64,000 nt of DNA from an uncultured Pelagibacteraceae bacterium (GTDB lineage Bacteria; Pseudomonadota; Alphaproteobacteria; Pelagibacterales; Pelagibacteraceae): positions 216,566 to 280,565 of the forward strand of contig CACORY010000001.1 in the NCBI GenBank assembly GCA_902629695.1. Reading direction: 5' to 3'. Shown in pieces: positions 47,104 through 62,843 of this stretch (position 1 is the stretch's first letter; every line of letters starts with the position of its first letter). The translations under genes and the position numbers were made by a program. The notes beneath the pieces are model-generated. The model searched no databases and was not told the DNA's origin. It saw only the letters and a list, made by a program, of their open reading frames with translations.

Positions 47104-48414
47104 ATGTTAGATCTAATAATAAAAAATGGACAGTGTTATATTAATGGAAAATTAGAAGAGAGAGATATCGCTGTTAAAGATGGTAAAATTATTAAGATAG
47201 GTGAAGTTTCAGAGGAAGCAAAAGAAGTTTACGATGCAAAAAATCAAATTGTTTTACCAGGCTGTATAGATACTCAAACACATTTTAGAGAACCAGGCTC
47301 AACTGATACAGAGGATCTTCATTCAGGTAGTAGAGCTGCAATAGTGGGAGGTATCACAGCTGTATTTGAAATGCCAAATACCAATCCACCGACTGCAAAC
47401 ATAAAAGAATTTCAAAGAAAACTAGATCTTGCTAAAAATAGAATGTTTTGCAATTATGCTTTTTATTTTGGAGCAACAGCTGACAACGTAGGTCAATTAG
47501 CAGAACTAAAAGACTTAGAAGGATGTTGTGGTATAAAACTATTTGCAGGATCTTCGACAGGTAATCTTTTAGTAGCAGAGGAAGAGGATATTGATAAAGT
47601 ATTTCAAAACTGTTCTAAAGTTGTAGCAGTACATTCAGAAGACGAGGAAATTTTAAATAAAAATAAAAAATTGATTAAACAAGGAGATGTGCATTCTCAT
47701 CCTGTGTGGAGAAGTGAAGAGTGTGCAATGTCATCGACAAGAAGAATAGTTAGAATTGCTGAAAAATATAACAAAAAAGCTCATGTACTTCATATAACAA
47801 CTAAACAGGAAATAGATTTTTTATCTCAACACAAAGGAAATATTACATTTGAAATTACTCCCCAGCATCTAACTATCTATGCACCAGATTGTTATGATAA
47901 ACTTGGAACTTATGCACAAATGAATCCGCCCATAAGAGATAAATCTCATTACGATCGATTGTGGTATGCAGTAAAAAATAATTTAAATGATACTATTGGT
48001 TCAGATCATGCTCCTCATTTAAAAGTTAATAAAGATAAAGAATATCCGAACTCACCTTCAGGAATGCCAGGCGTTCAAACTCTCATGCCAGTAATGTTGA
48101 ACCACGTTAATGATGGAAAATTATCACTTAATCAGTTGATTAATTTAGTGTGTGAAAATCCAGTAAAAATTTTTGGAATTAAAAATAAAGGATTTATCAA
48201 AGAAAATTACGATGCAGATTTTACTATAGTAGATATGAATAAAAAGATTATTATTAAGAATGAAAATATTGAGAGTAAATGTGGATGGTCACCTTTTAAT
48301 GGAGTTGAATTTAAGGGTACACCAATGGCCACAATTATCTCCGGAAAAATAAAAATGAAAGATGGTAAGATTTTAGGAGATCCAGAGGGAACGGCTTTAG
48401 AATTTTCGAATTAA
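47104..48414 (+). CDS. pyrC: Dihydroorotase (type I)
   Basis: LPGCIDTQTHFREPGSTDTEDLHSGSRAAIVGGITAVFEMPNT; IGSDHAPH. Confidence 0.93.
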   Translation: MLDLIIKNGQCYINGKLEERDIAVKDGKIIKIGEVSEEAKEVYDAKNQIVLPGCIDTQTHFREPGSTDTEDLHSGSRAAIVGGITAVFEMPNTNPPTANIKEFQRKLDLAKNRMFCNYAFYFGATADNVGQLAELKDLEGCCGIKLFAGSSTGNLLVAEEEDIDKVFQNCSKVVAVHSEDEEILNKNKKLIKQGDVHSHPVWRSEECAMSSTRRIVRIAEKYNKKAHVLHITTKQEIDFLSQHKGNITFEITPQHLTIYAPDCYDKLGTYAQMNPPIRDKSHYDRLWYAVKNNLNDTIGSDHAPHLKVNKDKEYPNSPSGMPGVQTLMPVMLNHVNDGKLSLNQLINLVCENPVKIFGIKNKGFIKENYDADFTIVDMNKKIIIKNENIESKCGWSPFNGVEFKGTPMATIISGKIKMKDGKILGDPEGTALEFSN

Positions 48415-50682
48415 ATTAATAGTTGCCTCATCAAATTCTTCAGGTCTCATAGCATTATTAGTCAATTTAAAATCAATCAGATAATCGTTTATTTTTTTAC
48501 TCAAAACATAATTAGATTTCAATTCATCGCCCCCAGTTATTGAAAAAGCGTAATTTGTTTCTTTATTGGGCAAATATCCAATTGCTATGTGGACTTTATC
48601 GGTATGACCTGATCCTAGAGCTTGATTACGTTCATAGATTAAAAAGAGACTAAAATTATCCTGCAACACTATATCAATACCAATCTCTCCATTAATATTA
48701 TGCAACGCTCCTGAGTGCAAGGTGTCACTAAAGTTTACGCTGTTATCACCCGTATAAGTATATTTGAAATTTGAGGAACGATCTATATCGATAACGTATT
48801 CAATTTTTCCATGTCTTTTCAAAGTATATTTATCATCAGTCAAATCTTGAACTGCAGCAAATCCTGCTCTGATTTTCTTCGTTCGAATATGTTGATTTTC
48901 TACATCAATACCACCAGTGCCAACTTCTTTATAGGATCCTAAAATAGTGTGACCAATATCAAATCTTCCAGAAGGAATAAAAGTGAAATTATCTTTTTTA
49001 ATTTCATCTTTTACTCTTATGGTTCCGTATATCTGTTTTCCTGTTCTATTAGCAGTAAACTTTTTACCTTCTAGAACAGTTAATAAGTCCGATTTTAATT
49101 TTCCAATCCCAATAAAAGTATCAAGAAATTTAGTATCATCTTCTATTGGGGATGTAGAATAATAGGTAATATTAAATGTATCCGTATCTAAATTGCTTCC
49201 ACCAGTTCCAACATCGACATTATTTCTACCAACTCTAAATGCTAGGCCTTGTATACCATTTTCTTCAGTAAATTTATCTGCACCAAAGGTGATTGCATCT
49301 GTATCAATTTTTTTGGTGGAAGAAATACTGGTATCACCAATTCTGCCAATATTAATACTGCCTTCACTCCAATAAAACACATCTTCATCTTTATTTTTTT
49401 TCTTAACTTTTGAAGCAGAGGCTTTAACCACCTCAGTTAAAGAAGCTAATCTTTCATTGGTAAAATTAAAATTAATATTTAAATTTGTTAAATTTTGTTT
49501 GTCTTTATTTCTTCTAATCCATTTTAAACGATTGAGTGCACTATCAGTTGCATGATCAATAGTTCTTTTAGCAATTTCTATTTGGGCTAATGCCATTCCA
49601 GTTCGATCTTTATTTTCAACAATTGGAGGACATGTCTCAGAAAAAATAGTAAATGGACAAACTAAATCATACTCCATTATCTCATCAAAACCACTGTTTC
49701 CAAAATCAGCTCCAATGTATAATTTTAAACCACTTGAATTAAATGCAACTCCTCTAGGTTGTTGATTGTCTGGAGATGCATTATTGAGATCAAATTTACC
49801 ATCCATAACAAATGATGAAGTATCAAAAGCATTTGTAAGGGAAATCTGACTAATACCTTCATTGTGATTTCCGTGACTAATAATAAAAATTCTTTTTCCA
49901 TTAGCGCTAAACCTAATTCCTGCTGAGTTGATTACATCAGCAGTGGTACCTGTGCCCATATCAATTCCAGCTGTTGTTACAATTTGAATTGAAGTTACGT
50001 CATACGGGGTTGAAAGTGTGTATTCTAATAATTTAGCAGAATTATCACTAGCCTCAAACCAACTCAAAAATAATTTCGTACCGGTGTTGTTAAATTCAAA
50101 ACCTTGTAGCCTTACGTGTTCATGTCCTACATAATCTTCATCAACCCTTGAAAAATTTCCAGCTGCACTATCACTTAAATTAGCAATGGTATCAAGGTCG
50201 ACCTCTTGTGCAAACTGACAAGTAGAAATATCATAAGGTGTAGTTAAATCATATCTAAAAAGGTTATCACTATCAGCACTATTAGTACGCGTTCTGCTCG
50301 CAACAAATAATTTTGTTCCATCATTATTAAATTCCAAATCATACACTGCACGGACACCAGCAACTGGAATTTCACTCATTGCACATCTTTCACTATCACC
50401 TGCATAAGTTCTTGAGCTTATATCGTAAGGTGTACTTAAGTTAAATTCGTTAACATGAACAGTATCTTCTGCAGGTTTTTCTGGCTGAGTGGAACTTATA
50501 AAAACTTTTGTTCCATCATTATTAAATTCGATACCAGCTATACCTCTAATTCGAGTTTTTTCATTTGACTCATCATCAAATATTACAGTTTGTACGTGTG
50601 TAAGAGTTGCTTCTCCAAAAGATTTAGAAATTGGAAACAATAAAATAAATATAACTAATATTCTTTTAGCCAAGGTCATCAT
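48397..50682 (-). CDS. Exported protein: propeller-like repeats plus C-terminal outer-membrane barrel-like domain (autotransporter-like)
   Basis: Signal peptide MMTLAKRILVIFILLFPISKSFG; about 5 repeats FNNDGTKVFISS / FNNDGTKLFVAS / FNNTGTKLFLSW / FSANGKRIFIIS / FNSSGLKLYIGA alternating with STPYDIS; alternating polar/aromatic C-terminal half ending in Phe. Confidence 0.7.
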   Translation of the reverse strand: MMTLAKRILVIFILLFPISKSFGEATLTHVQTVIFDDESNEKTRIRGIAGIEFNNDGTKVFISSTQPEKPAEDTVHVNEFNLSTPYDISSRTYAGDSERCAMSEIPVAGVRAVYDLEFNNDGTKLFVASRTRTNSADSDNLFRYDLTTPYDISTCQFAQEVDLDTIANLSDSAAGNFSRVDEDYVGHEHVRLQGFEFNNTGTKLFLSWFEASDNSAKLLEYTLSTPYDVTSIQIVTTAGIDMGTGTTADVINSAGIRFSANGKRIFIISHGNHNEGISQISLTNAFDTSSFVMDGKFDLNNASPDNQQPRGVAFNSSGLKLYIGADFGNSGFDEIMEYDLVCPFTIFSETCPPIVENKDRTGMALAQIEIAKRTIDHATDSALNRLKWIRRNKDKQNLTNLNINFNFTNERLASLTEVVKASASKVKKKNKDEDVFYWSEGSINIGRIGDTSISSTKKIDTDAITFGADKFTEENGIQGLAFRVGRNNVDVGTGGSNLDTDTFNITYYSTSPIEDDTKFLDTFIGIGKLKSDLLTVLEGKKFTANRTGKQIYGTIRVKDEIKKDNFTFIPSGRFDIGHTILGSYKEVGTGGIDVENQHIRTKKIRAGFAAVQDLTDDKYTLKRHGKIEYVIDIDRSSNFKYTYTGDNSVNFSDTLHSGALHNINGEIGIDIVLQDNFSLFLIYERNQALGSGHTDKVHIAIGYLPNKETNYAFSITGGDELKSNYVLSKKINDYLIDFKLTNNAMRPEEFDEATINLIRKF
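49700..50550 (-). repeat. Intragenic tandem protein repeats (propeller-like, about 5 copies)
   Basis: Repeated F(N/S)xxGxKxFI...Y(D)(I/V)(S/T) units in the N-terminal half of the 48397..50682 product; boundaries approximate. Confidence 0.7.
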
Positions 50683-50839: not shown

Positions 50840-51853
50840 ATGTTTGAAAAATTAGAAGAATTAGCCAAAAACAACAAGAAAATTTCGGACTTTCATATTA
50901 GAAGTGGCTGGCCATTAGCTTTTAGACAAACAGGAGAAATTCATAAAATACCAGAAGTAATTGTTAAAGCTCAAGATCTTCAAGATTTATTATCAACAAA
51001 TTGTAATGAAGTTGAAATGAAAAGATTTACTGAAACACATGAGTTAGACTCTTCAGTTACTCTTAGCGGATTAAGATTTAGAGCTAACTTTTATAAAACT
51101 ATTACAGGACCAGCTGCAGTATTAAGAAGAGTAGAAAGCGTTATACCTGAAATGGGACAGTTTGATCTACCACAAGTTCTTTATGATATTATTGATATGC
51201 ACAAAGGTCTTGTTCTTGTTACAGGTCCAACAGGATCTGGAAAATCAACTACGCTTGCAGCTATCATAAATGAAATTAATAAAACCAGAACTGCAAATAT
51301 TATTACTGTTGAAGACCCAGTTGAATTTATTCATAAAGATGTAAAAAGTATTGTCTCTCATAGAGAGGTGGGAAAACAAACCAAAACTTTTGCAAGTGCA
51401 TTAAAAGCGGCACTTCGAGAAGATCCAGATGTAATTTTAGTAGGTGAGATGAGAGATTTAGAAACAGTTTCATTAGCTTTAACAGCTGCAGAAACAGGTC
51501 ACTTGGTTTTTGGAACATTACACACAAGTGGTGCACCAAATACTATCAACAGAATTATCGACGTGTTTCCACCTGAACAACAAGCTCAAATTCGAGCACA
51601 AATTTCAACATCATTAAAGATGGTTGTTACTCAAAGACTTTTAAAAACTAAAGACGGCCAAGGTCGTTGTGGTGCTTTTGAGGTGATGAAGTGTACAGCC
51701 CCAATTCAAAACTTAATAAGAGAGTCTAAAATTCATCAAATCCCAAGCATCATGCAAACTGCTGTTAAAGAAGGAATGATAACAATGCAGAAATCATTAG
51801 AAGAACTTGTTAAAGCTGGGAAAATTGATGCTGGTGCAGGAAAAGAACATTAA
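50840..51853 (+). CDS. pilT: Type IV pilus retraction ATPase PilT-like
   Basis: Walker A VTGPTGSGKSTT; IITVEDPVEFIHKD; ALREDPDVILVGEMRDLETVSLALTAAETGHLVFGTLHT. Confidence 0.94.
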   Translation: MFEKLEELAKNNKKISDFHIRSGWPLAFRQTGEIHKIPEVIVKAQDLQDLLSTNCNEVEMKRFTETHELDSSVTLSGLRFRANFYKTITGPAAVLRRVESVIPEMGQFDLPQVLYDIIDMHKGLVLVTGPTGSGKSTTLAAIINEINKTRTANIITVEDPVEFIHKDVKSIVSHREVGKQTKTFASALKAALREDPDVILVGEMRDLETVSLALTAAETGHLVFGTLHTSGAPNTINRIIDVFPPEQQAQIRAQISTSLKMVVTQRLLKTKDGQGRCGAFEVMKCTAPIQNLIRESKIHQIPSIMQTAVKEGMITMQKSLEELVKAGKIDAGAGKEH

Positions 51854-52523
51854 AGGTTTTAATATACTAGAGTTGATTGTTGTTCTCGCAATCATCGGAG
51901 TTATATCTGCTTCAGCTTATCCAAAGTTTTCATCGTGGAAAAAAGGTAGAGAAGTAAGAACTGATGCTCTTAAAGTAAAAAAAGTATTTGAGGGTATTAA
52001 TGCTCAGGTTCAAAGAGGCCAATTTGCATTTGTACAAGTTTTAATTGGTGTAAATGATGATAATGTTATTTTTACCACTAGAGGCATGAAAACAGATACT
52101 TTAGCTCAAAAAATTAATAATGGTGATAGTGCATGGAACACAACTATATCTTCAAGATGTGATATGACTACACCAGATTATTGGGACGTAGATGGCTCAG
52201 AGGTAAACGATATTGAAGTTCAGTCAATAACATTCGAGGATATCACTACTAATTTAGCAGGTGATTCTGCGGTATGCTTTTCTAAAAATGCTAGGTGGTT
52301 TAGTGGAGCTGGAGATCTACTCAGTGGAACAGGCAATGACTCTGTAGTCGATGAAAGTTTAATAATATGTAAAAGAGATGGTGATAATACATGTGTACTC
52401 AGTGCATCTGGTGAACCTGCTGACACAGAAGATAATTTGATGTATTCTTTAGATTGGACTAGATTTGGAGAAATTACTTTAGACAAATGGAGCAGTAAAT
52501 CGTCAGAGTGGGTTTTGCAATAA
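51807..52523 (+). CDS. Type IV pilin/pseudopilin-like protein
   Basis: Class III signal KNIKG|FNILELIVVLAIIGVISASAYPKF with Glu5; overlaps pilT 3' end; start may be 51828. Confidence 0.88.
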   Translation: MLKLGKLMLVQEKNIKGFNILELIVVLAIIGVISASAYPKFSSWKKGREVRTDALKVKKVFEGINAQVQRGQFAFVQVLIGVNDDNVIFTTRGMKTDTLAQKINNGDSAWNTTISSRCDMTTPDYWDVDGSEVNDIEVQSITFEDITTNLAGDSAVCFSKNARWFSGAGDLLSGTGNDSVVDESLIICKRDGDNTCVLSASGEPADTEDNLMYSLDWTRFGEITLDKWSSKSSEWVLQ

Positions 52524-52524
52524 T

Positions 52525-53232
52525 ATGAGAAAAATAAAAAATATTTTAGGTTTAACAATTTTAGAAGGACTTATTTCAACAGCAATTGTTGGTATTGGTT
52601 TTATCGCTATACTTCAAATGGTAAATTATTCAGTACAATCAATTGATACATCTGGAGAGAGAACTAAAGCTAATTACTTAGTTAGCATGATTGCAGAAGA
52701 TATCATTGGTTATAAAGATTCTGTTTATGGAGTAGATCCAAATGTAGATAAAGTTGCTATAAGTATTGATGGTACAGTGACAATTAATGAGGAAGAAAGA
52801 GAAAATGCAAGAAGATTTACGGAACATTTAGCTCACGATAATGTAGAATTTTTTACGGGAGCATGTGGATCGTCAAATTTAGCTACCGCTGCTATTGGTA
52901 CAACTGGTACAACAGAACAACAAGAAAGTTCACCAAGCTCAAGTGCACCAACTAGTATTTATGGCTCACAATTTTCAGATGGTCCACAAAATAAAGAGCA
53001 GAAATGGATGACAATATTTGGAGAGGATCGTTATTTGAAATGTAGAGGCGATAAAGATATTAAAAAAGTAAAAATGTATAAAATTTGCAGATGGAATGAT
53101 GCATGTTCAAATTATGTTGACCCCCGAATTAATGATAACGGAATGTATATTGGAAGAATTCAGGTTAATTTAAACAATGGAAAAAAAAGAAAGTTTTTAT
53201 ACTTTCAAGCTGATTACAACACAAGAAAATGA
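52525..53232 (+). CDS. PilV-like minor pilin/pseudopilin
   Basis: NILG|LTILEGLISTAIVGIGFIAILQMV class III signal. Confidence 0.85.
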   Translation: MRKIKNILGLTILEGLISTAIVGIGFIAILQMVNYSVQSIDTSGERTKANYLVSMIAEDIIGYKDSVYGVDPNVDKVAISIDGTVTINEEERENARRFTEHLAHDNVEFFTGACGSSNLATAAIGTTGTTEQQESSPSSSAPTSIYGSQFSDGPQNKEQKWMTIFGEDRYLKCRGDKDIKKVKMYKICRWNDACSNYVDPRINDNGMYIGRIQVNLNNGKKRKFLYFQADYNTRK

Positions 53233-54149
53233 AAAAAAATAAATTTAAAAATATTGCAGGTTTAACTCTTTTAGAGATGCTCATTGGAGTTGTGATTTCA
53301 TCGATTATGATGGGAGCAATTTATACTACATATACAGTTGTTAATAATAGCTATAGCCAGGTAACAGAGAGAGCAAAAATTAGTCGATCTGGTAGAGATA
53401 TTGTGGAAATGATGATGAGGGACATTAGAATGGCGGGTTTTAAATATATGTTAGGCACCAACACTCTTGGTTTACCTAATAGAAGTTATTTAGAGTTTGT
53501 AGGTGGTGATACTACTATTGCAGAAAGTCATGATCCAATAATTATAGAAAAAGGTGAGAGTGCCTTAGGACCAGCGGAAGGTTCTTATAGCAAAATAGAA
53601 ATACAAGGGCACCCAGACGAAGGTAGTAAATGTTGTGACAGGATACATATAGTTTATGATGATTTTAATCAAAATGATACAACTCAACCATATAAGAGAT
53701 ATAAGATTACCTATTATGCTGCACCAATTACAGATGGTGATGGACAAAGGTATGCTGCATATAAATCTCTTATAAGCTGGTCTCAACCAATAGACTCTGA
53801 AAGTGGTACTTGGGTTGATAATTGCCCAGAATGTTATGTTGGACAAAAAATTCGTGACCACATAGTGGATATGGAATTTGTTCCACTGGATGCTGAGGGT
53901 AGAGTACTTTCTCCATTGCCTCGTCCTGGCTCAGATACTGCAGCTAGGGATAATCTTTACAAAATTAGAGCAGTTGATTTAATAATTACTTTTAGATCAA
54001 AAAGTAATTTCTATAAATTTAAATCGGCATCAGGCAAACCTCGTTATGTAAAAGGTTTAGGAGACAGAGGACATGATTTTGATGATACTAAATTAAGAGA
54101 CTCAGTTGTTGTTACTATCCACACAAGAAATATAGGAGGTGGGATATAA
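53229..54149 (+). CDS. PilW-like minor pilin/pseudopilin
   Basis: NIAG|LTLLEMLIGVVISSIMMGAIYTTYTV; RSGRDIVEMMMRDIRMAGFKY typical of PilW. Confidence 0.88.
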   Translation: MKKNKFKNIAGLTLLEMLIGVVISSIMMGAIYTTYTVVNNSYSQVTERAKISRSGRDIVEMMMRDIRMAGFKYMLGTNTLGLPNRSYLEFVGGDTTIAESHDPIIIEKGESALGPAEGSYSKIEIQGHPDEGSKCCDRIHIVYDDFNQNDTTQPYKRYKITYYAAPITDGDGQRYAAYKSLISWSQPIDSESGTWVDNCPECYVGQKIRDHIVDMEFVPLDAEGRVLSPLPRPGSDTAARDNLYKIRAVDLIITFRSKSNFYKFKSASGKPRYVKGLGDRGHDFDDTKLRDSVVVTIHTRNIGGGI

Positions 54150-54151
54150 TC

Positions 54152-54997
54152 ATGAAACGTAAAAATGAAAAAGGATTTGCATTAGTTTTATCACTTTTAC
54201 TTTTACTTGTAATGTCTTTGATGGGAGGAGCACTTATTGTTATTTCTTCAACTGACCACCAAAGTAATAATTCAAGCGATGAATATCAACAAACTTTTTA
54301 TGTAGCTGAGACCGCATTGCTTGAAGGAGAAAAATGGATAATCAACCAAAGAATGGGTCCCTGGATTTCAACATCAACAGTTGAATCTGAAGACACCTCA
54401 GGAATGACTAGTGATGAAAAAGCAAGTTGGGACTCGATGATCGAACAAATGAAAACTACGGCGGTTCAAGGAATGTCAAGATATGTTGATAAAAGAGATT
54501 TGCCTACTAACAGAAATGTGGTTACAAATACTCCGTGCTTCAATAGTTATAGAAATATTGCTAAAAGTAATGTCGAAATAGATGGCACTACTCATTCAAA
54601 TACATTAGCAGTTGCAGCCCATGCGGTGAATAAAAACTTTGGATCATTAATACAACAAGTTTTTTCAGATTCTTCTCTTGATAATTTAACTGATGCAGAC
54701 ACTATTCAAAAAGAAAAAGCCCACATGGATAGATTTAGGTATGAGTATTTTATCGTCAATATTGGAACTGCAAATTTTCGTGGAGCAGGAGCTAGTTTAA
54801 AAAAAACTACTACTAATACACAATCATCAGGTACCGCGTATAAAATTTATGGTTGTGGCTATATGATGGATAAAAGCGACTCAAAAAGTAGCGCTGAAAT
54901 TGGCTCGGGTTTTACTGATGAAGGCTGGGCTGAAATTGATGGAAAAAGACCAGACATCTTAGTAGCCCTAGAAACTGTGGTTGTTGTGTCAAATTGA
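54152..54997 (+). CDS. PilX-like minor pilin
   Basis: KG|FALVLSLLLLLVMSLMGGALIVISSTDHQSNNSSDEYQQTFYVAETALLEGEKWI, PilX N-terminal family pattern. Confidence 0.87.
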   Translation: MKRKNEKGFALVLSLLLLLVMSLMGGALIVISSTDHQSNNSSDEYQQTFYVAETALLEGEKWIINQRMGPWISTSTVESEDTSGMTSDEKASWDSMIEQMKTTAVQGMSRYVDKRDLPTNRNVVTNTPCFNSYRNIAKSNVEIDGTTHSNTLAVAAHAVNKNFGSLIQQVFSDSSLDNLTDADTIQKEKAHMDRFRYEYFIVNIGTANFRGAGASLKKTTTNTQSSGTAYKIYGCGYMMDKSDSKSSAEIGSGFTDEGWAEIDGKRPDILVALETVVVVSN

Positions 54998-55067
54998 TAT
55001 GCTCAAAATAAGTAATTTCTTTAAAAAGAGCCTTTTAAAAATAAACTCAAAATTTTATAATATTTTT

Positions 55068-55580
55068 ATGAATAAAAATTTTTTTATAATTTTTGTTTTT
55101 ATTTTATTCACTAATAATTCTTTAGCTTGTGATGCACTTAAATTAACAGGCACTAAGGTCTCAAGCGCAAAAAAAACTTTTTTTATTATTGACGGGTATT
55201 CAGAGGAAGATTTTGATGAATGGAACACTGTTCAATACATGGGTAATGCTGCAGATTATTGTCCAAAAAGTAATTTAGAAAATTCTTACATCCATGTCTT
55301 TGTTTATCAATCAAAAATTGTTGGGATTCGATTAGAAACCATGGATGTTGGAGTAAATGAATATGAAATATATAAATTTGCCAAAGTTACCTATGGAAAT
55401 TTGAGTAAGGAAGTTGAGAATAAAAATTGGTTTGGCTATAAAGATATTAGTGTTGGCCAAGACAAAATTCTTTATGCAAAAACAAAAGATTATAATGGCA
55501 CGATAGAAACTCTTGATATTTCGACAGAAGAATTGATAGATTTTACAATAGGAGAAGAGGTTATTTTAGCAGTAAATTAA
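55068..55580 (+). CDS. Uncharacterised exported protein in pilus operon
   Basis: Internal Met at 55068 gives signal peptide MNKNFFIIFVFILFTNNSLA|CDALK; no recognised domain; ORF-track start is 54981. Confidence 0.7.
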   Translation: MNKNFFIIFVFILFTNNSLACDALKLTGTKVSSAKKTFFIIDGYSEEDFDEWNTVQYMGNAADYCPKSNLENSYIHVFVYQSKIVGIRLETMDVGVNEYEIYKFAKVTYGNLSKEVENKNWFGYKDISVGQDKILYAKTKDYNGTIETLDISTEELIDFTIGEEVILAVN

Positions 55581-55583
55581 ATT

Positions 55584-58500
55584 ATGAAACATTTTGCAAA
55601 ATATTTCTTATTCTTATTTATCTTATTAGAGATTGCATTTGTATCTAAAGTTGATGCAAAACCAGTTCCTCCTGGTTCAGGAGAGGGAGATGTCCCTGCT
55701 AATATTCTGATTTTAATTGATAGTTCAGCAAGTATGAGACGAAGAATGAGTAATAGAGATGCCATTCAGTATGTTCCAAATGCAATTTACGATTCAAATG
55801 GAGATATTCTTGCATCACAGTTTAGAAATAACGGAGTAGTAAAATTTAATGCTGATGGATCTAGAAACAGAGAGTTTAATGATAATGTTGGAAGATATAC
55901 TGGTAATGCGTCCGACTCATGCCAAATGTCATCTACAGGAATGGGCTATGGTGGAGCCATAACAAAAAATACGGTTGCACGGCACACTGCCGATATAAGA
56001 TTTGCAGAAGAATTAACTACTGATAATGGAAATCTTACAAATACGGATATATTTTTCTTCAGATCTAATGATCGTCAACTAAGAGATGATCAAGCAATTG
56101 TTGGATATTCTGAGAATGGACAGGATTGTCTAATGTACATAGAGCTTGGACTGACAATTCAAGGATTGGATTATCAACAAATAGGAGACGAACACTTTTT
56201 GTTCGTTACTGGTAGAGTGGGTAATTCTTCAGCATTTGTATCATTCAATTTAAATTCAGGCATGAGTAGCGGTGTACAGACTTTTACAGGAAATCTTAAT
56301 AATTCATTTGCACGTCTTGGTAGGCTTACTTGGAGAATTGCAGTTAACAGTGATGCCTCAATGTTATATTTAGGCCGAGTTCATATATATGGGTATACCA
56401 TGGAAAGAGATGGTGAAGCTTTTCGAATTACCAATAACGCGGCCACCAGACTTTATACTAGAGTAAATCGTGGAAATTTAGATACACAATTAGCAGACGT
56501 AATAGGTATCGATGTTTCACCTGATGATGATGATATTTTATATATAACTTCAACAAGAAGACATGTAATTCAAAAAGTTCGGCTTGATACAAATACAACA
56601 TACACAATATTAGCAAGAGCAGGTAGAGGAGTAAGACATAATGGAGCGAATATAGAAGCTTCTGGAGCTCTTAGAGCTAACTCCGTTAGATTTAACCAAC
56701 CAATTGGTATTCATGTAACATCGGATAGAATTTTAGTTGGAACTACAAGAGGAACTATAGATGTTTTCAATGAAAATTTATTTACTGCAGAAAATAGAGA
56801 CACTGCTTGGTTACTTCAAATGGGTGGTGGAGTCGTATCAAGATGGGTTGGTGTTAAAAAAGCAATGAGTGCCATTATAAGTGACACAACTTTAACCAGT
56901 GGTGCTCACTTTGGTTATGGACACTGGAATGCTGGAGAAACTGGTGGTCGAAGAACAGGAGCTAGAGGTGGAAGATTCTGTCATTTTAATGATGGTTGTA
57001 CATATTACGGTGGGTGGAATGGTGATCATCCAGACGGACAATCATTACAATGTAATAGAGACTCATGTTTAAATGTAGGAATAAGTGCTGAAGGATATAC
57101 GAGAATTCTAGATAATTTAATTCCTCAAGGTTTAGCTTGGGGTACTGACGCTAACGCATACTCTATTATGGCACTCGATTACTTTAATAATGATTTTGAG
57201 GCTTACGATGAGAACTCAGAGTGTCAATTAAATTATGTTATCGTAATTGGTGATGGGATGATGAGAAACAATGCTTCTGCCGTTCCTAGAATTGCGGAAT
57301 TAAGAGATAAAACAAATCCAGTTAAAACTTTATTTGTTGCTTATGGCGGAGGTATTAACGCCAGAGGAATGGAAATTTTTGATGAAATGGCTGTGGCTGG
57401 ATCTTGTCCAGGGGGAGACGCAAACAGCCCTGATTGTGAACCAACAATAGTTGCTGATACACCAGAGTCTTTAAAAACTCAATTGACAGCAAAAATCAGA
57501 CAAATACTTGCTGAACGATTGTCATTTACCGCTCCATCGATCACAGCTACTGTTCAAGAAGGGGGTTCTTTATATCAAGCACAATTTTCTTATGAACAAT
57601 TTGGAGAATGGCAAGGAACAATTTTGAGAAAAACTTTAAACGCGGACGGAACTGTTATTCATGAAATGGATGCAGCCGGAAACTGGGATGCATCGGTAGA
57701 AATTAGAAAACAAGCTTCAATTGCTGATGCGGCTGATACAAGAAATTTATGGAGTGCGATACCTGGATCACCTTACCTTGGAAATTGGGATAACTTCAAC
57801 ACAGACAACTCAGATGATATAACTGAATTATTTGAATTATATGGTTTTGATATTGCTGACTACCATAATGCAACTTCTTACTGTGCAACAAATGGATATG
57901 TGGGTGACAACGGAACATCTGATGATCTTTTAGGATTAATAAATTTTATGAAGGGTACGGATTACTTTGACTATGATGGAGACTGTGATGTTACTGAAGT
58001 AAGAAGTCATGTTCTTGGGGATATTTATCACTCACAATTGATAGAAGTAGGCCCACCTGATGCAAGTATTGAGTTTACTGGTGCTAATGAAGAAGCATAT
58101 TATAGAGCAACTAATAACTATCAAAGTTTTGTGGCAAAACACGCATCAAGAAGAAACGTTATCTATGCAGGTGCAAATAGTGGTGTGCTTCATGCTATTA
58201 ATGCTGAAACTGGTGCAGAGGAGTGGGGCTTTATTCCACCATTCATTGCTGGATTGCTTCCCTCACTAATGAATGCTGATCTCAGTGGAAAAATTGATAG
58301 TAAAAAAGGTGGAACCAATGCAATTTTTGGTGTTGATGGATCACCAGTAGTACATGATGTTTTTATTAGAGGAATTAATGAACGAGGAGAACTAGAGAAT
58401 CAAAGAAATTGGCATACTATTTTATTTGTTCCTTATGGAAGAGGTGGAGCAGGATTTTCTGTTTTAGATGTTACCAATCCAATATTAAAAGACAATTTGG

Positions 58501-60431
58501 GACCTATACATATGTTTAGTGTCTTTAATGATGCAATTAACAGTACTGTCTATATGGCTGACCATGAAGGTCAAATTACAACATATCCTTACTCGTCTGG
58601 TTCTGTTAGTATTCAAGATTCATTAGAGGCAATAAAAGCTGGTGAAAATTTAGATACAGCCTTTGAAGCAGATGGAGGCGATGACTCTTTAAATCCAGAT
58701 CATTCCTCTTACTGTGATAGCTCAGATAATCCTGATGAAATACAAGACTGTACTAATCAAGATGCTATAGCAGTCTGTCAACTTAATGATACAGACGTCA
58801 TGACGACCACTGGTCTATTCCATTCAGATGCACAAGGAACAGCTTCGTGCTTCAAAGGTACAAAATTTAGATTTTCTGATTTAAAACCTCAAGCAAAAGC
58901 TGATGGAACTGTACCTAAGTCATCATTAAAAGTTACAGAAAGAGTTGATGGAACTTTACAAACAATCGATTTTACTAGTGCAGAGTATGAAAATGATAAT
59001 TTAGTAATAACGTTTCCTTCTGAGAAAACTTATAATGCAGGAGGTAGTCCTCTTGAAACTTCGCCGACTAATCAGTTTACAGTCGCCACATCATGCACTG
59101 CAGCTACTGATATACCAGTACAATATGATTATAGCCAATTAGGAGAAACATGGTCAGCTCCAAGAATATTTAGAATTCCATCAGAAACGCTTGCTGATAG
59201 AAATAATTCAAGCAAAGATAGATATGTTGCAGTAATGGGAGCCGGTATGGGTGCTACAAATTTATGTGCTGGTTCAGCAGTATTTATAGTTAATTTAGAT
59301 AGAGATGATGAAGAAGGTATTGAACCTGGAACTATTTATGGAGCTACAACTAATGGAGGTCCAATTACAATTGTAGATACAGTTGTAACTAGAGAAGCTG
59401 TAACAACAACAATTACAAAGGATGACGGTACAACTGAAACTGTGACTACACAAGCAGCAACTAAAGTTGCTGGGCAGCATACACCAAATGGAAGCGATAT
59501 TGGAAACTCTTTACCTGCTTCTGCAGTCGTTATAACCCCAGATACTGCATTTAATATTCCTTGGAGAGGCGCTATGGTTTATTTTAATGATCTTGAAGGA
59601 AAAATCACAAAATTAAATTTAACAAGTTCTACAAAAAATGATGCAGATCTTTTTGATCAAACTACTTTATTTAGATTAGATGCTAACACAGTTAATAAAA
59701 GATACAGTTATTTCTCAATGGATGCAGGAATTGGACAAACAACAAGAGACTTTTGGTTATTTGGTGGGACAGGAAACTTTAATGATATAGGTGGAGGTTC
59801 TAAATTTATGGATAATATTTTGTATGGTGTTAAAGATCCAAATTACCCATATTTTAGTCATTTAAATGAAGCGCATGTCCCAAGAGAAACTGATGATGAT
59901 TTTTTAGCCGAGGCACACAAAGGAGCTAATGCAGCTGCAAGTATTGATAATGCAGTTGTTTGCAAAAATACCACCGGTAAAATAAGTTGTGATGATGGAC
60001 CTTCAAGCGGGCAACAAGCATGGGTAGTTCATTTAGATACACCAGATGGTAAAGGTCCAAATGAAAATAGCACTAATACTTTTAGAAAATTATCAGCTGC
60101 ACCTACTTTATTTAAAGGTCAAGTTTACTATCCAATATATGAACCTCCTCAAGGAGCCAATCCATGTAACATTGGTAATGCATTTATTTGTGTCGTAGAT
60201 GATGAGTGTGGATCAAATAACTCTCATCTCCTATCTAGAGGTGGCGTGCCAAACGGAAAAAATTGTGAATTTGTAAGAGAAGGTATTTTGTCAGAGCTTG
60301 TAATATTCGGGGATAAATTATTCGCAAACGTTGCAGGACCTAAAGAAGATGCTGAAACACTCTACTCAATCTTAGCTGCCGCTGGAGAAGTGGAAACAAG
60401 CAGAGGTAGTTGGAGAGAATCTGGCTTTTAA
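55584..60431 (+). CDS. pilY1: PilY1-like pilus-associated adhesin/assembly protein
   Basis: Signal peptide; MIDAS ILILIDSSASM; C-terminal PilY1 propeller VIYAGANSGVLHAINAETGAEEWGFIPPFIAGLLPSL; downstream of pilV/W/X-like genes. Confidence 0.9.
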   Translation: MKHFAKYFLFLFILLEIAFVSKVDAKPVPPGSGEGDVPANILILIDSSASMRRRMSNRDAIQYVPNAIYDSNGDILASQFRNNGVVKFNADGSRNREFNDNVGRYTGNASDSCQMSSTGMGYGGAITKNTVARHTADIRFAEELTTDNGNLTNTDIFFFRSNDRQLRDDQAIVGYSENGQDCLMYIELGLTIQGLDYQQIGDEHFLFVTGRVGNSSAFVSFNLNSGMSSGVQTFTGNLNNSFARLGRLTWRIAVNSDASMLYLGRVHIYGYTMERDGEAFRITNNAATRLYTRVNRGNLDTQLADVIGIDVSPDDDDILYITSTRRHVIQKVRLDTNTTYTILARAGRGVRHNGANIEASGALRANSVRFNQPIGIHVTSDRILVGTTRGTIDVFNENLFTAENRDTAWLLQMGGGVVSRWVGVKKAMSAIISDTTLTSGAHFGYGHWNAGETGGRRTGARGGRFCHFNDGCTYYGGWNGDHPDGQSLQCNRDSCLNVGISAEGYTRILDNLIPQGLAWGTDANAYSIMALDYFNNDFEAYDENSECQLNYVIVIGDGMMRNNASAVPRIAELRDKTNPVKTLFVAYGGGINARGMEIFDEMAVAGSCPGGDANSPDCEPTIVADTPESLKTQLTAKIRQILAERLSFTAPSITATVQEGGSLYQAQFSYEQFGEWQGTILRKTLNADGTVIHEMDAAGNWDASVEIRKQASIADAADTRNLWSAIPGSPYLGNWDNFNTDNSDDITELFELYGFDIADYHNATSYCATNGYVGDNGTSDDLLGLINFMKGTDYFDYDGDCDVTEVRSHVLGDIYHSQLIEVGPPDASIEFTGANEEAYYRATNNYQSFVAKHASRRNVIYAGANSGVLHAINAETGAEEWGFIPPFIAGLLPSLMNADLSGKIDSKKGGTNAIFGVDGSPVVHDVFIRGINERGELENQRNWHTILFVPYGRGGAGFSVLDVTNPILKDNLGPIHMFSVFNDAINSTVYMADHEGQITTYPYSSGSVSIQDSLEAIKAGENLDTAFEADGGDDSLNPDHSSYCDSSDNPDEIQDCTNQDAIAVCQLNDTDVMTTTGLFHSDAQGTASCFKGTKFRFSDLKPQAKADGTVPKSSLKVTERVDGTLQTIDFTSAEYENDNLVITFPSEKTYNAGGSPLETSPTNQFTVATSCTAATDIPVQYDYSQLGETWSAPRIFRIPSETLADRNNSSKDRYVAVMGAGMGATNLCAGSAVFIVNLDRDDEEGIEPGTIYGATTNGGPITIVDTVVTREAVTTTITKDDGTTETVTTQAATKVAGQHTPNGSDIGNSLPASAVVITPDTAFNIPWRGAMVYFNDLEGKITKLNLTSSTKNDADLFDQTTLFRLDANTVNKRYSYFSMDAGIGQTTRDFWLFGGTGNFNDIGGGSKFMDNILYGVKDPNYPYFSHLNEAHVPRETDDDFLAEAHKGANAAASIDNAVVCKNTTGKISCDDGPSSGQQAWVVHLDTPDGKGPNENSTNTFRKLSAAPTLFKGQVYYPIYEPPQGANPCNIGNAFICVVDDECGSNNSHLLSRGGVPNGKNCEFVREGILSELVIFGDKLFANVAGPKEDAETLYSILAAAGEVETSRGSWRESGF

Positions 60432-60434
60432 TTT

Positions 60435-60635
60435 TTAGAAAATCTTTAAATAATAATAAATTATCCAAGCAAACATTGTAAACATTGTTACAAATATTAG
60501 AGCTAGACCTACCAAAGTATCTTGATTAACTTTCTTACGCCATTTTTTTGGAAAAAAATTAAGTGAATAAGCATAAACGATTATAAAAATATTAAATGCG
60601 AGAAGAGAAATATTAAAGAAAAAAAATTTTTCCAT
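60435..60635 (-). CDS. Small two-TM membrane protein coupled to pilD
   Basis: 66 aa with two hydrophobic segments; start overlaps pilD stop by 1 nt (TAATG). Confidence 0.6.
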   Translation of the reverse strand: MEKFFFFNISLLAFNIFIIVYAYSLNFFPKKWRKKVNQDTLVGLALIFVTMFTMFAWIIYYYLKIF

Positions 60636-61399
60636 TATAGAAAAAAAGTTTTTATTTGATTTGCAAATAATACATAGATTAAACAGCCAATAATTATAAA
60701 AGGCCCGAAAGGGATTTGTGTAGACAAATCTCTGCTCTTGTTCATTAATGATGGAATAGAGTAAACTAAAGCAACAACTGAGGAAATAAAAATTGTAAAA
60801 GGTATACTAAACCACCCAAACCAAAAACCAACTACAGCAATTAATTTTGCATCACCAAGCCCCATTCCCTCTTTATTTCTTAAAGTTTTATAAAAAAAAA
60901 TGATTAACCAAATAATTGCATAACCAAACAATCCTCCAATTAAAGAATTGATATAATTAGGAAATAAAGATTGATTTAAATTTGGATCAAAAGATTTTAC
61001 AAAACCAATAAGCATCAAAGGAAATGTTAATTCATTTGGAATTATATAATGCTTTAAGTCAATAAAAAATATCATGATAAAAAAAATACTCAAAATAACT
61101 AGTAATAAGGCAGTAACTGAAATTCCGTACATATAAAAAATGAAAAGAAAACTTAACGCTGAAATCAATTCTACTATAAAATATTGTATACTTATCCCAA
61201 TATTACATTTTCGACATTTTCCTTTTAAGAAAAGAAAAGAAAAAAAAGGGATATTATCAAACCATCTTATCTGCTCTTTGCATGAAGGACAAAAAGATCT
61301 CCCTTTCATTACATTTTGTTCTAATGGTAGACGATAAATACAAACATTACAAAAACTACCCCAGATACTACCTAAAATAAAAGCTAGAATATAAAACAC
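60635..61399 (-). CDS. pilD: Prepilin peptidase
   Basis: CPSCKEQIRWFDNIPFFSFLFLKGKCRKC zinc motif; FFIDLKHYIIPNELT and GLGDAKL aspartyl peptidase motifs. Confidence 0.95.
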   Translation of the reverse strand: MFYILAFILGSIWGSFCNVCIYRLPLEQNVMKGRSFCPSCKEQIRWFDNIPFFSFLFLKGKCRKCNIGISIQYFIVELISALSFLFIFYMYGISVTALLLVILSIFFIMIFFIDLKHYIIPNELTFPLMLIGFVKSFDPNLNQSLFPNYINSLIGGLFGYAIIWLIIFFYKTLRNKEGMGLGDAKLIAVVGFWFGWFSIPFTIFISSVVALVYSIPSLMNKSRDLSTQIPFGPFIIIGCLIYVLFANQIKTFFL

Positions 61400-61562: not shown

Positions 61563-62843
61563 ATGTTTTTTAAATCAAAAAAACCTGAAATAATTAAAGA
61601 AGACTCAAGAATAGAAGATTTTCAAATTATTACAAAACTAAGTCAAGAATTTGCTACCTCTCTTGATTTAGGTGAGACTCTCCAAAATTCACTTGATGTC
61701 ATTATTAAAAGAATAAATGCACAAGCTGCTAATGTTTTTTTAATAGAAGAAAAAAAACAAGTTTTCCAATGCATCGCGTCAAAACACCAAGCATACTTGG
61801 AGGATTACGAGATTCCTTTGACTCAAGGAGTGATGGGTAAAGCGGTTTTACAAAAAAAATGTATTCGTGTTGGAGATGTTAGAAAGGATGTGAGAGAAAT
61901 TGCAGAATTTTATTTTGATTTAGATAACAAAACAAATTTTACTACGTACTCGGTACTATGTGCTCCATTAATTGCTGCTAATGAATGCATTGGTGTTCTT
62001 CATTGTTTAAATAAAAAAACAACCAATAAACTTTTTGAAGAGAGTGATAGAAAACTTTTAGAAACATTAGCCACACCAGCAGCTCTTGCTATTAGAAATG
62101 CTCGAATGGCTAAAGAGCTTGTTGATAAAAATAGAATGCAGAAAGAAATAGAGATTGTCGGAGAGATACAGAAAACTTTATTATCCAAAAATAAAGAAGA
62201 CGCTTTTCCAATAGCTGGGATAAATATTCCTGCAAAAGTAGTGTCTGGAGATTTTTACAACTTTTCTGATTTAGGAGATGGTAAATATGGATTTGGTGTT
62301 GCAGATGTATCTGGAAAAGGAATTAAGTCATCTTTATTGATGTCAAAAGCCTCAAGTCTTTATCGGTGCTTAAGTAAAACAATGTTCTCAGCATCAGACT
62401 TATTAAATTTATTAAATAAAGAAATTTGTGAAACTGCAGCCAGAGGTATGTTTGTTACCATGTTAGTTGGAATTTACGATAGTAATAAAAAACAATTATT
62501 AATTTCAAATGCTGGACATGAACCTCCATTGATTTATTCAAAAGATGGAAAATTTTCCAATCATACAGAGGCAGGACCACCATTAGGTATTATGCCAAAT
62601 ATTACCTACAAGGAGAGTTCAATTTCCTTTTCAGAAAGTTCTATGTACATTTTTACCGATGGTGTAACAGAAATAAAAGATCCTGATGGAGAAATGTTAG
62701 GAGCTGAAGGTTTCCAGGATTATATTAAAAAGTATCAATCCACGGCCAATAATAAAAGATTAAAAGTAATTATAGAGGATATTGTTAAGTCTGGAAAAAT
62801 TCAAAAAGATGATTTAACAATTGTTGTTATAGACGGAAAATAA
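61563..62843 (+). CDS. GAF-domain SpoIIE/RsbU-type PP2C phosphatase
   Basis: GAF-like N-terminus (IINAQAANVFLIEEKKQVF...QGVMGKAVLQKK); SGDFYNFSDLGDGKYGFGVADVSGKGIKSSLLMS; ISNAGHEPPLIY; FTDGVTE. Confidence 0.92.
   Translation: MFFKSKKPEIIKEDSRIEDFQIITKLSQEFATSLDLGETLQNSLDVIIKRINAQAANVFLIEEKKQVFQCIASKHQAYLEDYEIPLTQGVMGKAVLQKKCIRVGDVRKDVREIAEFYFDLDNKTNFTTYSVLCAPLIAANECIGVLHCLNKKTTNKLFEESDRKLLETLATPAALAIRNARMAKELVDKNRMQKEIEIVGEIQKTLLSKNKEDAFPIAGINIPAKVVSGDFYNFSDLGDGKYGFGVADVSGKGIKSSLLMSKASSLYRCLSKTMFSASDLLNLLNKEICETAARGMFVTMLVGIYDSNKKQLLISNAGHEPPLIYSKDGKFSNHTEAGPPLGIMPNITYKESSISFSESSMYIFTDGVTEIKDPDGEMLGAEGFQDYIKKYQSTANNKRLKVIIEDIVKSGKIQKDDLTIVVIDGK

Follow-up and report, generated by a model that had tools for sequence, protein, structure and literature searches.

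This locus raises the question of what occupies the stretch between the first MIDAS motif of a VWA domain and the remainder of that domain in a PilY1 pilus tip protein, and what it might do there. The gene lies in a 64,000-nucleotide stretch of DNA from an uncultured Pelagibacteraceae (SAR11) bacterium, which we refer to in its entirety as the window; the source assembly is 0.96 Mb and 79.75% complete. We are highly confident of the general anatomy, that of a PilY1 whose VWA domain has a six-bladed NHL-type propeller built into the loop from the MIDAS to helix 1.

A SAR11 pilY1 gene and its neighborhood

The open reading frame at 55584–60431 (+) codes for a predicted protein of 1615 residues, with a probable signal peptide (residues 1–25; 55584–55658, +) read directly from the hydrophobic N-terminus, and a DxDGDxD stretch, a candidate calcium-binding motif, at residues 796–802. 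Its C-terminal segment matches the Pfam family T4P_PilY1 (PF05567) at 33.1 bits (cut-off 28.1), with profile positions 1–150 aligned at 58014–58478 (+), where the C-terminal PilY1 propeller begins, and the same match is present in this segment of all 16 aligned relatives. The best PDB match of a profile of the C-terminal region is to the Pseudomonas aeruginosa PilY1 structure (3HX6; E 3.5e-15). The AlphaFold2 model of the C-terminal 846 residues is poor (pLDDT 51.8), and a Foldseek search with it returned nothing at E ≤ 0.001, so that the PilY1 identity, which the initial annotation also gave, rests on sequence profiles. Searches of the full-length protein against Pfam, NCBIfam and PDB sequences found no VWA domain and no convincing propeller, and a family profile and relatives were therefore needed. 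The relatives in our genome collection that are 47–98% identical belong to Pelagibacteraceae or Candidatus Pelagibacter. Most probably, this pilY1 encodes the adhesin at the tip of a type IVa pilus in SAR11.

Genes for minor pilins and for pilus machinery accompany pilY1, in the neighborhood and on another contig. Upstream are a PilT/PilU-type ATPase gene (50840–51853, +; Pfam T2SSE 3.2e-50), with a putative retraction role suggested by its position and length, and four pilin-like genes (FimT/PilE-, PilV-, PilW- and PilX-like; 51807–54997, +) assigned from Pfam matches, position and N-termini. Two of these four have N_methyl matches (one just under the cut-off) and one has PilX_N; the PilV-like gene is without a Pfam match and is assigned from its position and N-terminus. 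A prepilin peptidase gene, pilD, is downstream on the opposite strand (60635–61399, −; A24_N_bact 3e-32, Peptidase_A24 4.4e-24). The other contig contains a strong match to a PilB-type ATPase and a secretin, about 0.6 kb apart. With ATPases, pilin-like genes, a prepilin peptidase and a secretin all found, the genome has key components of the machinery for a type IVa pilus.

Several other genes in the region are of interest. One at 54981–55580 (+), between the PilX-like gene and pilY1, codes for a probably secreted 199-residue protein with no family match over cut-off. To the left of the pilus genes is an autotransporter gene (48397–50682, −) with a Pfam beta-domain match (3.9e-19), the passenger of which has five or more repeats of the GIEFNNDGTKVFIS kind, and therefore looks propeller-like rather than like a beta-helix. 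Adjoining the pilus genes on the right is a gene for a protein with GAF and SpoIIE-type phosphatase domains (61563–62843, +), a close relative of which sits between two PilY1 genes in another SAR11 genome (L151); it may provide a regulatory link to the pilus.

A predicted six-bladed propeller nested in the VWA domain

The first VWA strand and first MIDAS motif (NILILI-DSSAS) are at residues 40–50 (55701–55733, +; model strand E14–21), with DSSAS at residues 46–50 (55719–55733), where it was initially placed. The VWA domain resumes with SRWVGVKKAMSAIISDTTLTSGAHFGYGHW, in helix 1, from residue 419 (nt 56838), and the remainder (56838–57527, +), defined by the AlphaFold2 model and the Pfam VWA matches of relatives, includes helix 1, the MIDAS threonine (WGTDA, T521), the MIDAS aspartate (IGDG, D557) and the final helix. 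The DxSxS...T...D set is complete (DSSAS, T521 and D557), and 367 residues (52–418) separate DSSAS from helix 1. The initial annotation had given a gap of about 365 residues with the VWA resuming near nt 56845, within an interval (55700–56866) that agrees with our boundaries of 55737–56837 to a few tens of bases. Pfam VWA or VWA_2 matches are above cut-off in several relatives but not in the window protein, where the VWA elements are visible in the AlphaFold2 model. The proposal that the VWA is split by an insertion is borne out by this model and by the relatives, in which NHL matches are followed by VWA matches (to 4.3e-11) that begin at VWA profile position 12–17, as expected for a VWA domain cut after its first strand.

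The AlphaFold2 prediction, for residues 26–727 with 17 relatives, has an overall pLDDT of 82.3; the insert is mostly at about 80–97, with low loops near model residues 326–338 and 378–383. The strand order runs from VWA strand 1 through six groups of approximately four strands each to VWA helix 1, and the insert (residues 52–418; 55737–56837, +) is thus predicted to consist of six four-stranded blades, its assignment and limits being drawn from the model, Foldseek, and the NHL matches and boundaries of relatives. Blade 1 starts about 15 residues past the MIDAS (residues 66–117; 55779–55934, +), and is followed on the same strand by blades 2 (126–187; 55959–56144), 3 (191–234; 56154–56285), 4 (252–291; 56337–56456), 5 (308–346; 56505–56621) and 6 (373–414; 56700–56825), all delimited by the model strands. 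The three NHL-like units quoted in the initial annotation are present and lie in predicted blades 4, 5 and 6, with three further blades upstream of them. Foldseek against the PDB yields 245 matches with E ≤ 0.001, of which the best reaches 6.2e-8; the matches listed are propellers, of YVTN, WD40, kelch or NHL type. The segment is thus predicted to fold as a propeller and not as normal VWA loops.

The propeller is far less conspicuous in the sequence. The profile of the window family matches the NHL domain of PknD and the designed Pizza propellers weakly (E 0.012 and up; the PknD match, at E 0.012, falls in blade 1 at profile positions 34–69), and no Pfam propeller family, including NHL (PF01436), is above cut-off in the window protein itself. 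Self-similarity among its blades is no better than chance, with 290 of 500 shuffled sequences scoring as well, and the blades are too diverged for recognition from the window sequence alone. PF01436 is over cut-off, however, in all ten sampled N-termini from other Pelagibacterales, with relatives from other genera and a second family reaching 1.8e-21 over three repeats. The NHL signal is thus plain in the relatives, and for the window protein the label applies by homology.

Distribution of the insert and use of the insertion site

A profile of the N-terminal region matches 65 of 197 Pelagibacterales genomes, in two families, and 59 of the 149 of better quality. The insert is 266–468 residues long in every Pelagibacterales PilY1 where the MIDAS and helix 1 can both be located, and with the same architecture found across the order it is an order-wide feature and no peculiarity of the window genome. 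Some SAR11 genomes encode more than one PilY1-like protein with differing N-terminal heads: there are three in a single genome represented by L150 and L149, and two in L151. Two PilY1 fragments come from a second alphaproteobacterial family; the first residues of one fall at VWA helix 1, those of the other within the C-terminal domain. Searching the whole phylum with the N-terminal profile recovered only the window's own genome, the profile being too specific for distant PilY1 proteins, and we therefore compared the insertion site in 22 VWA-type PilY1 proteins of other Pseudomonadota whose VWA domains were read directly; P. aeruginosa PilY1 is itself outside this set.

In 14 of these 22 proteins the VWA domain is interrupted at this very point by 111–224 residues of other sequence, and in the other eight just 3–15 residues separate DxSxS-M from helix 1. 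An insert of Pelagibacterales size is present at this site in none of the 22, and a Pfam scan of ten of the 14 inserts gave no propeller match. Three of the eight short-loop proteins have a large VWA insert elsewhere, composed of repeats that we read as jelly-roll-like; in L115, L117 and L118 such repeats extend for several hundred residues further along the VWA. With extra sequence there in 14 of 22 proteins, the loop following the MIDAS is a hot spot for additional sequence in PilY1. The initial suggestion of an unusual PilY1 architecture thus needs to be narrowed: the insertion site is common, and it is only the propeller content that is unusual.

Divergence of the propeller and its probable exchange in one clade

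The propeller is the most divergent PilY1 domain in three clades. In the window's group (with the propeller taken as residues 53–419, a shift of one residue that leaves the result unchanged) its mean pairwise identity is 49%, compared with 65–68% for the other large domains, and in two further clades the values for the propeller and the rest are 53 versus 68–69%, and 43 versus 60–70%. The dN/dS ratio of the insert exceeds that of the adjoining VWA in all five close pairs that include the window protein, and is well below 1; relaxed constraint could give faster divergence of the propeller.

There are also signs of exchange. In the comparison of the window with L032, dS is 0.19 in the propeller and 0.64–0.77 in the flanks, which indicates that the propeller segment was shared more recently than its flanks. 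Trees of nine sequences in the window's clade, built for the propeller and for the rest of the gene, reject each other, the propeller data rejecting the rest-of-gene tree with a delta logL of 100 (AU p < 1e-4), and four equally long control segments taken outside the propeller agree with their complements. The conflict is marginal in clade C (p 0.027). There is none for the propeller in clade B, and we have rejected tree conflict as a general property of the propeller. The phylogenies thus support exchange of the propeller module in one clade and not as a general process.

Proposed role of the propeller and alternatives

Propellers often bind ligands via one face, and we think it rather likely that the nested propeller serves, next to the MIDAS, as a variable recognition head, which is the likeliest of the roles considered. 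From its place by the metal site, the head would bind a surface or polymer ligand, the VWA body would transmit pulling force to the stalk and the C-terminal PilY1 propeller, and the latter would cap the pilus. We infer that a ligand is bound, that the propeller contacts the MIDAS and cooperates with the metal site, and that force is coupled. The initial annotation had offered the insert as a candidate ligand-recognition module, a reading strengthened by the fast divergence of the propeller and its exchange in one clade; as the fastest-changing part of the protein, swapped in that clade, it probably decides what the pilus binds. A more speculative extension, to which we give only a modest chance, is that the propeller is a cassette that recombines between SAR11 strains independently of the remainder of the protein.

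Of the alternatives, the one that fares best, and which we nonetheless consider unlikely, gives the propeller a structural role as a gate or spacer: it would shield or position the metal site and determine tip mechanics, and bind no ligand itself. The insertion comes immediately after DxSxS, and because unrelated sequence occupies the same site in so many other PilY1 proteins, occupancy may matter more than the occupant; extra folds form a planar shield round the MIDAS in a published model of Acinetobacter baylyi ComC (PMC10374093). Such a part would be expected to be constrained, yet the propeller diverges fastest in all three clades. Somewhat less probable again is a variable decoy, an exposed tip domain with a minor binding role that changes under pressure from pilus-targeting phages or grazers. 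Both the fast divergence and the tree conflict specific to the module in the window's clade would fit such a decoy, but the propeller is kept in every Pelagibacterales PilY1 measured, which suggests a positive role. An artefact, whether long but ordinary VWA loops, a misassembly or a fortuitous fusion, might be suspected from the lack of an over-cut-off Pfam propeller match in the window protein, but is refuted by the recurrence of the arrangement in several genera and a second family, in genomes independent of one another, the confident propeller model and the single uninterrupted reading frame.

The recognition-head reading can be set against several known systems. P. aeruginosa PilY1 (3HX6) shares the N-terminal VWA with its MIDAS and has a homologous C-terminal PilY1 propeller; this is the only propeller in its published architecture (PMC11891296), whereas the window protein has a second, nested one. 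The VWA scaffold of PilY1/ComC orthologues bears lineage-specific inserts. Acinetobacter baumannii ComC, a PilY1 homologue, has such an insert in the form of a VWA finger, and adhesion, twitching and DNA uptake are all impaired when the finger is deleted (PMC10374093). The ComC insert is an antiparallel beta finger (residues 166–256), whereas the SAR11 insert is a predicted propeller, and the finger is the nearest experimental precedent for a propeller head. A 2026 survey of myxobacterial PilY1 proteins describes VWA or DUF4114 heads and, as here, widely differing N-termini with a constant C-terminal propeller; the passages found in it do not mention a VWA-nested propeller (PMC13190605).

Among other propellers, the sensor domain of PknD has the fold and the weak sequence match to blade 1, and NHL-2 has the fold and is among the Foldseek matches of the insert; neither is known to be nested in a VWA domain. 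In the integrin head a VWA (I) domain adjoins a propeller, with the MIDAS at the ligand site, and the VWA sits inside the propeller. The nesting is reversed in SAR11 PilY1, where the propeller is inside the VWA, and the likeness is one of analogy only.

A SAR11 gene cluster with a PilY1 annotation was included in a 2013 paper (PMC3686209), and our literature search found no paper combining PilY1 with an NHL repeat. The PilY1 family, VWA inserts and NHL propellers are each known already; an NHL propeller nested in the PilY1 VWA and conserved across an order appears to be undescribed in the literature searched.

In type IV pili, adhesion and force sensing are ascribed to the VWA domain of PilY1, and the nested propeller offers a defined, expressible domain for asking what SAR11 pili bind. 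Streamlined, free-living bacteria have retained it throughout an order, and it changes more quickly than other parts of the protein. If the head is indeed exchangeable, sticking to particles, DNA or other cells could be rapidly re-specified. The loop after the MIDAS can accommodate whole domains, and is a general site of PilY1 diversification.
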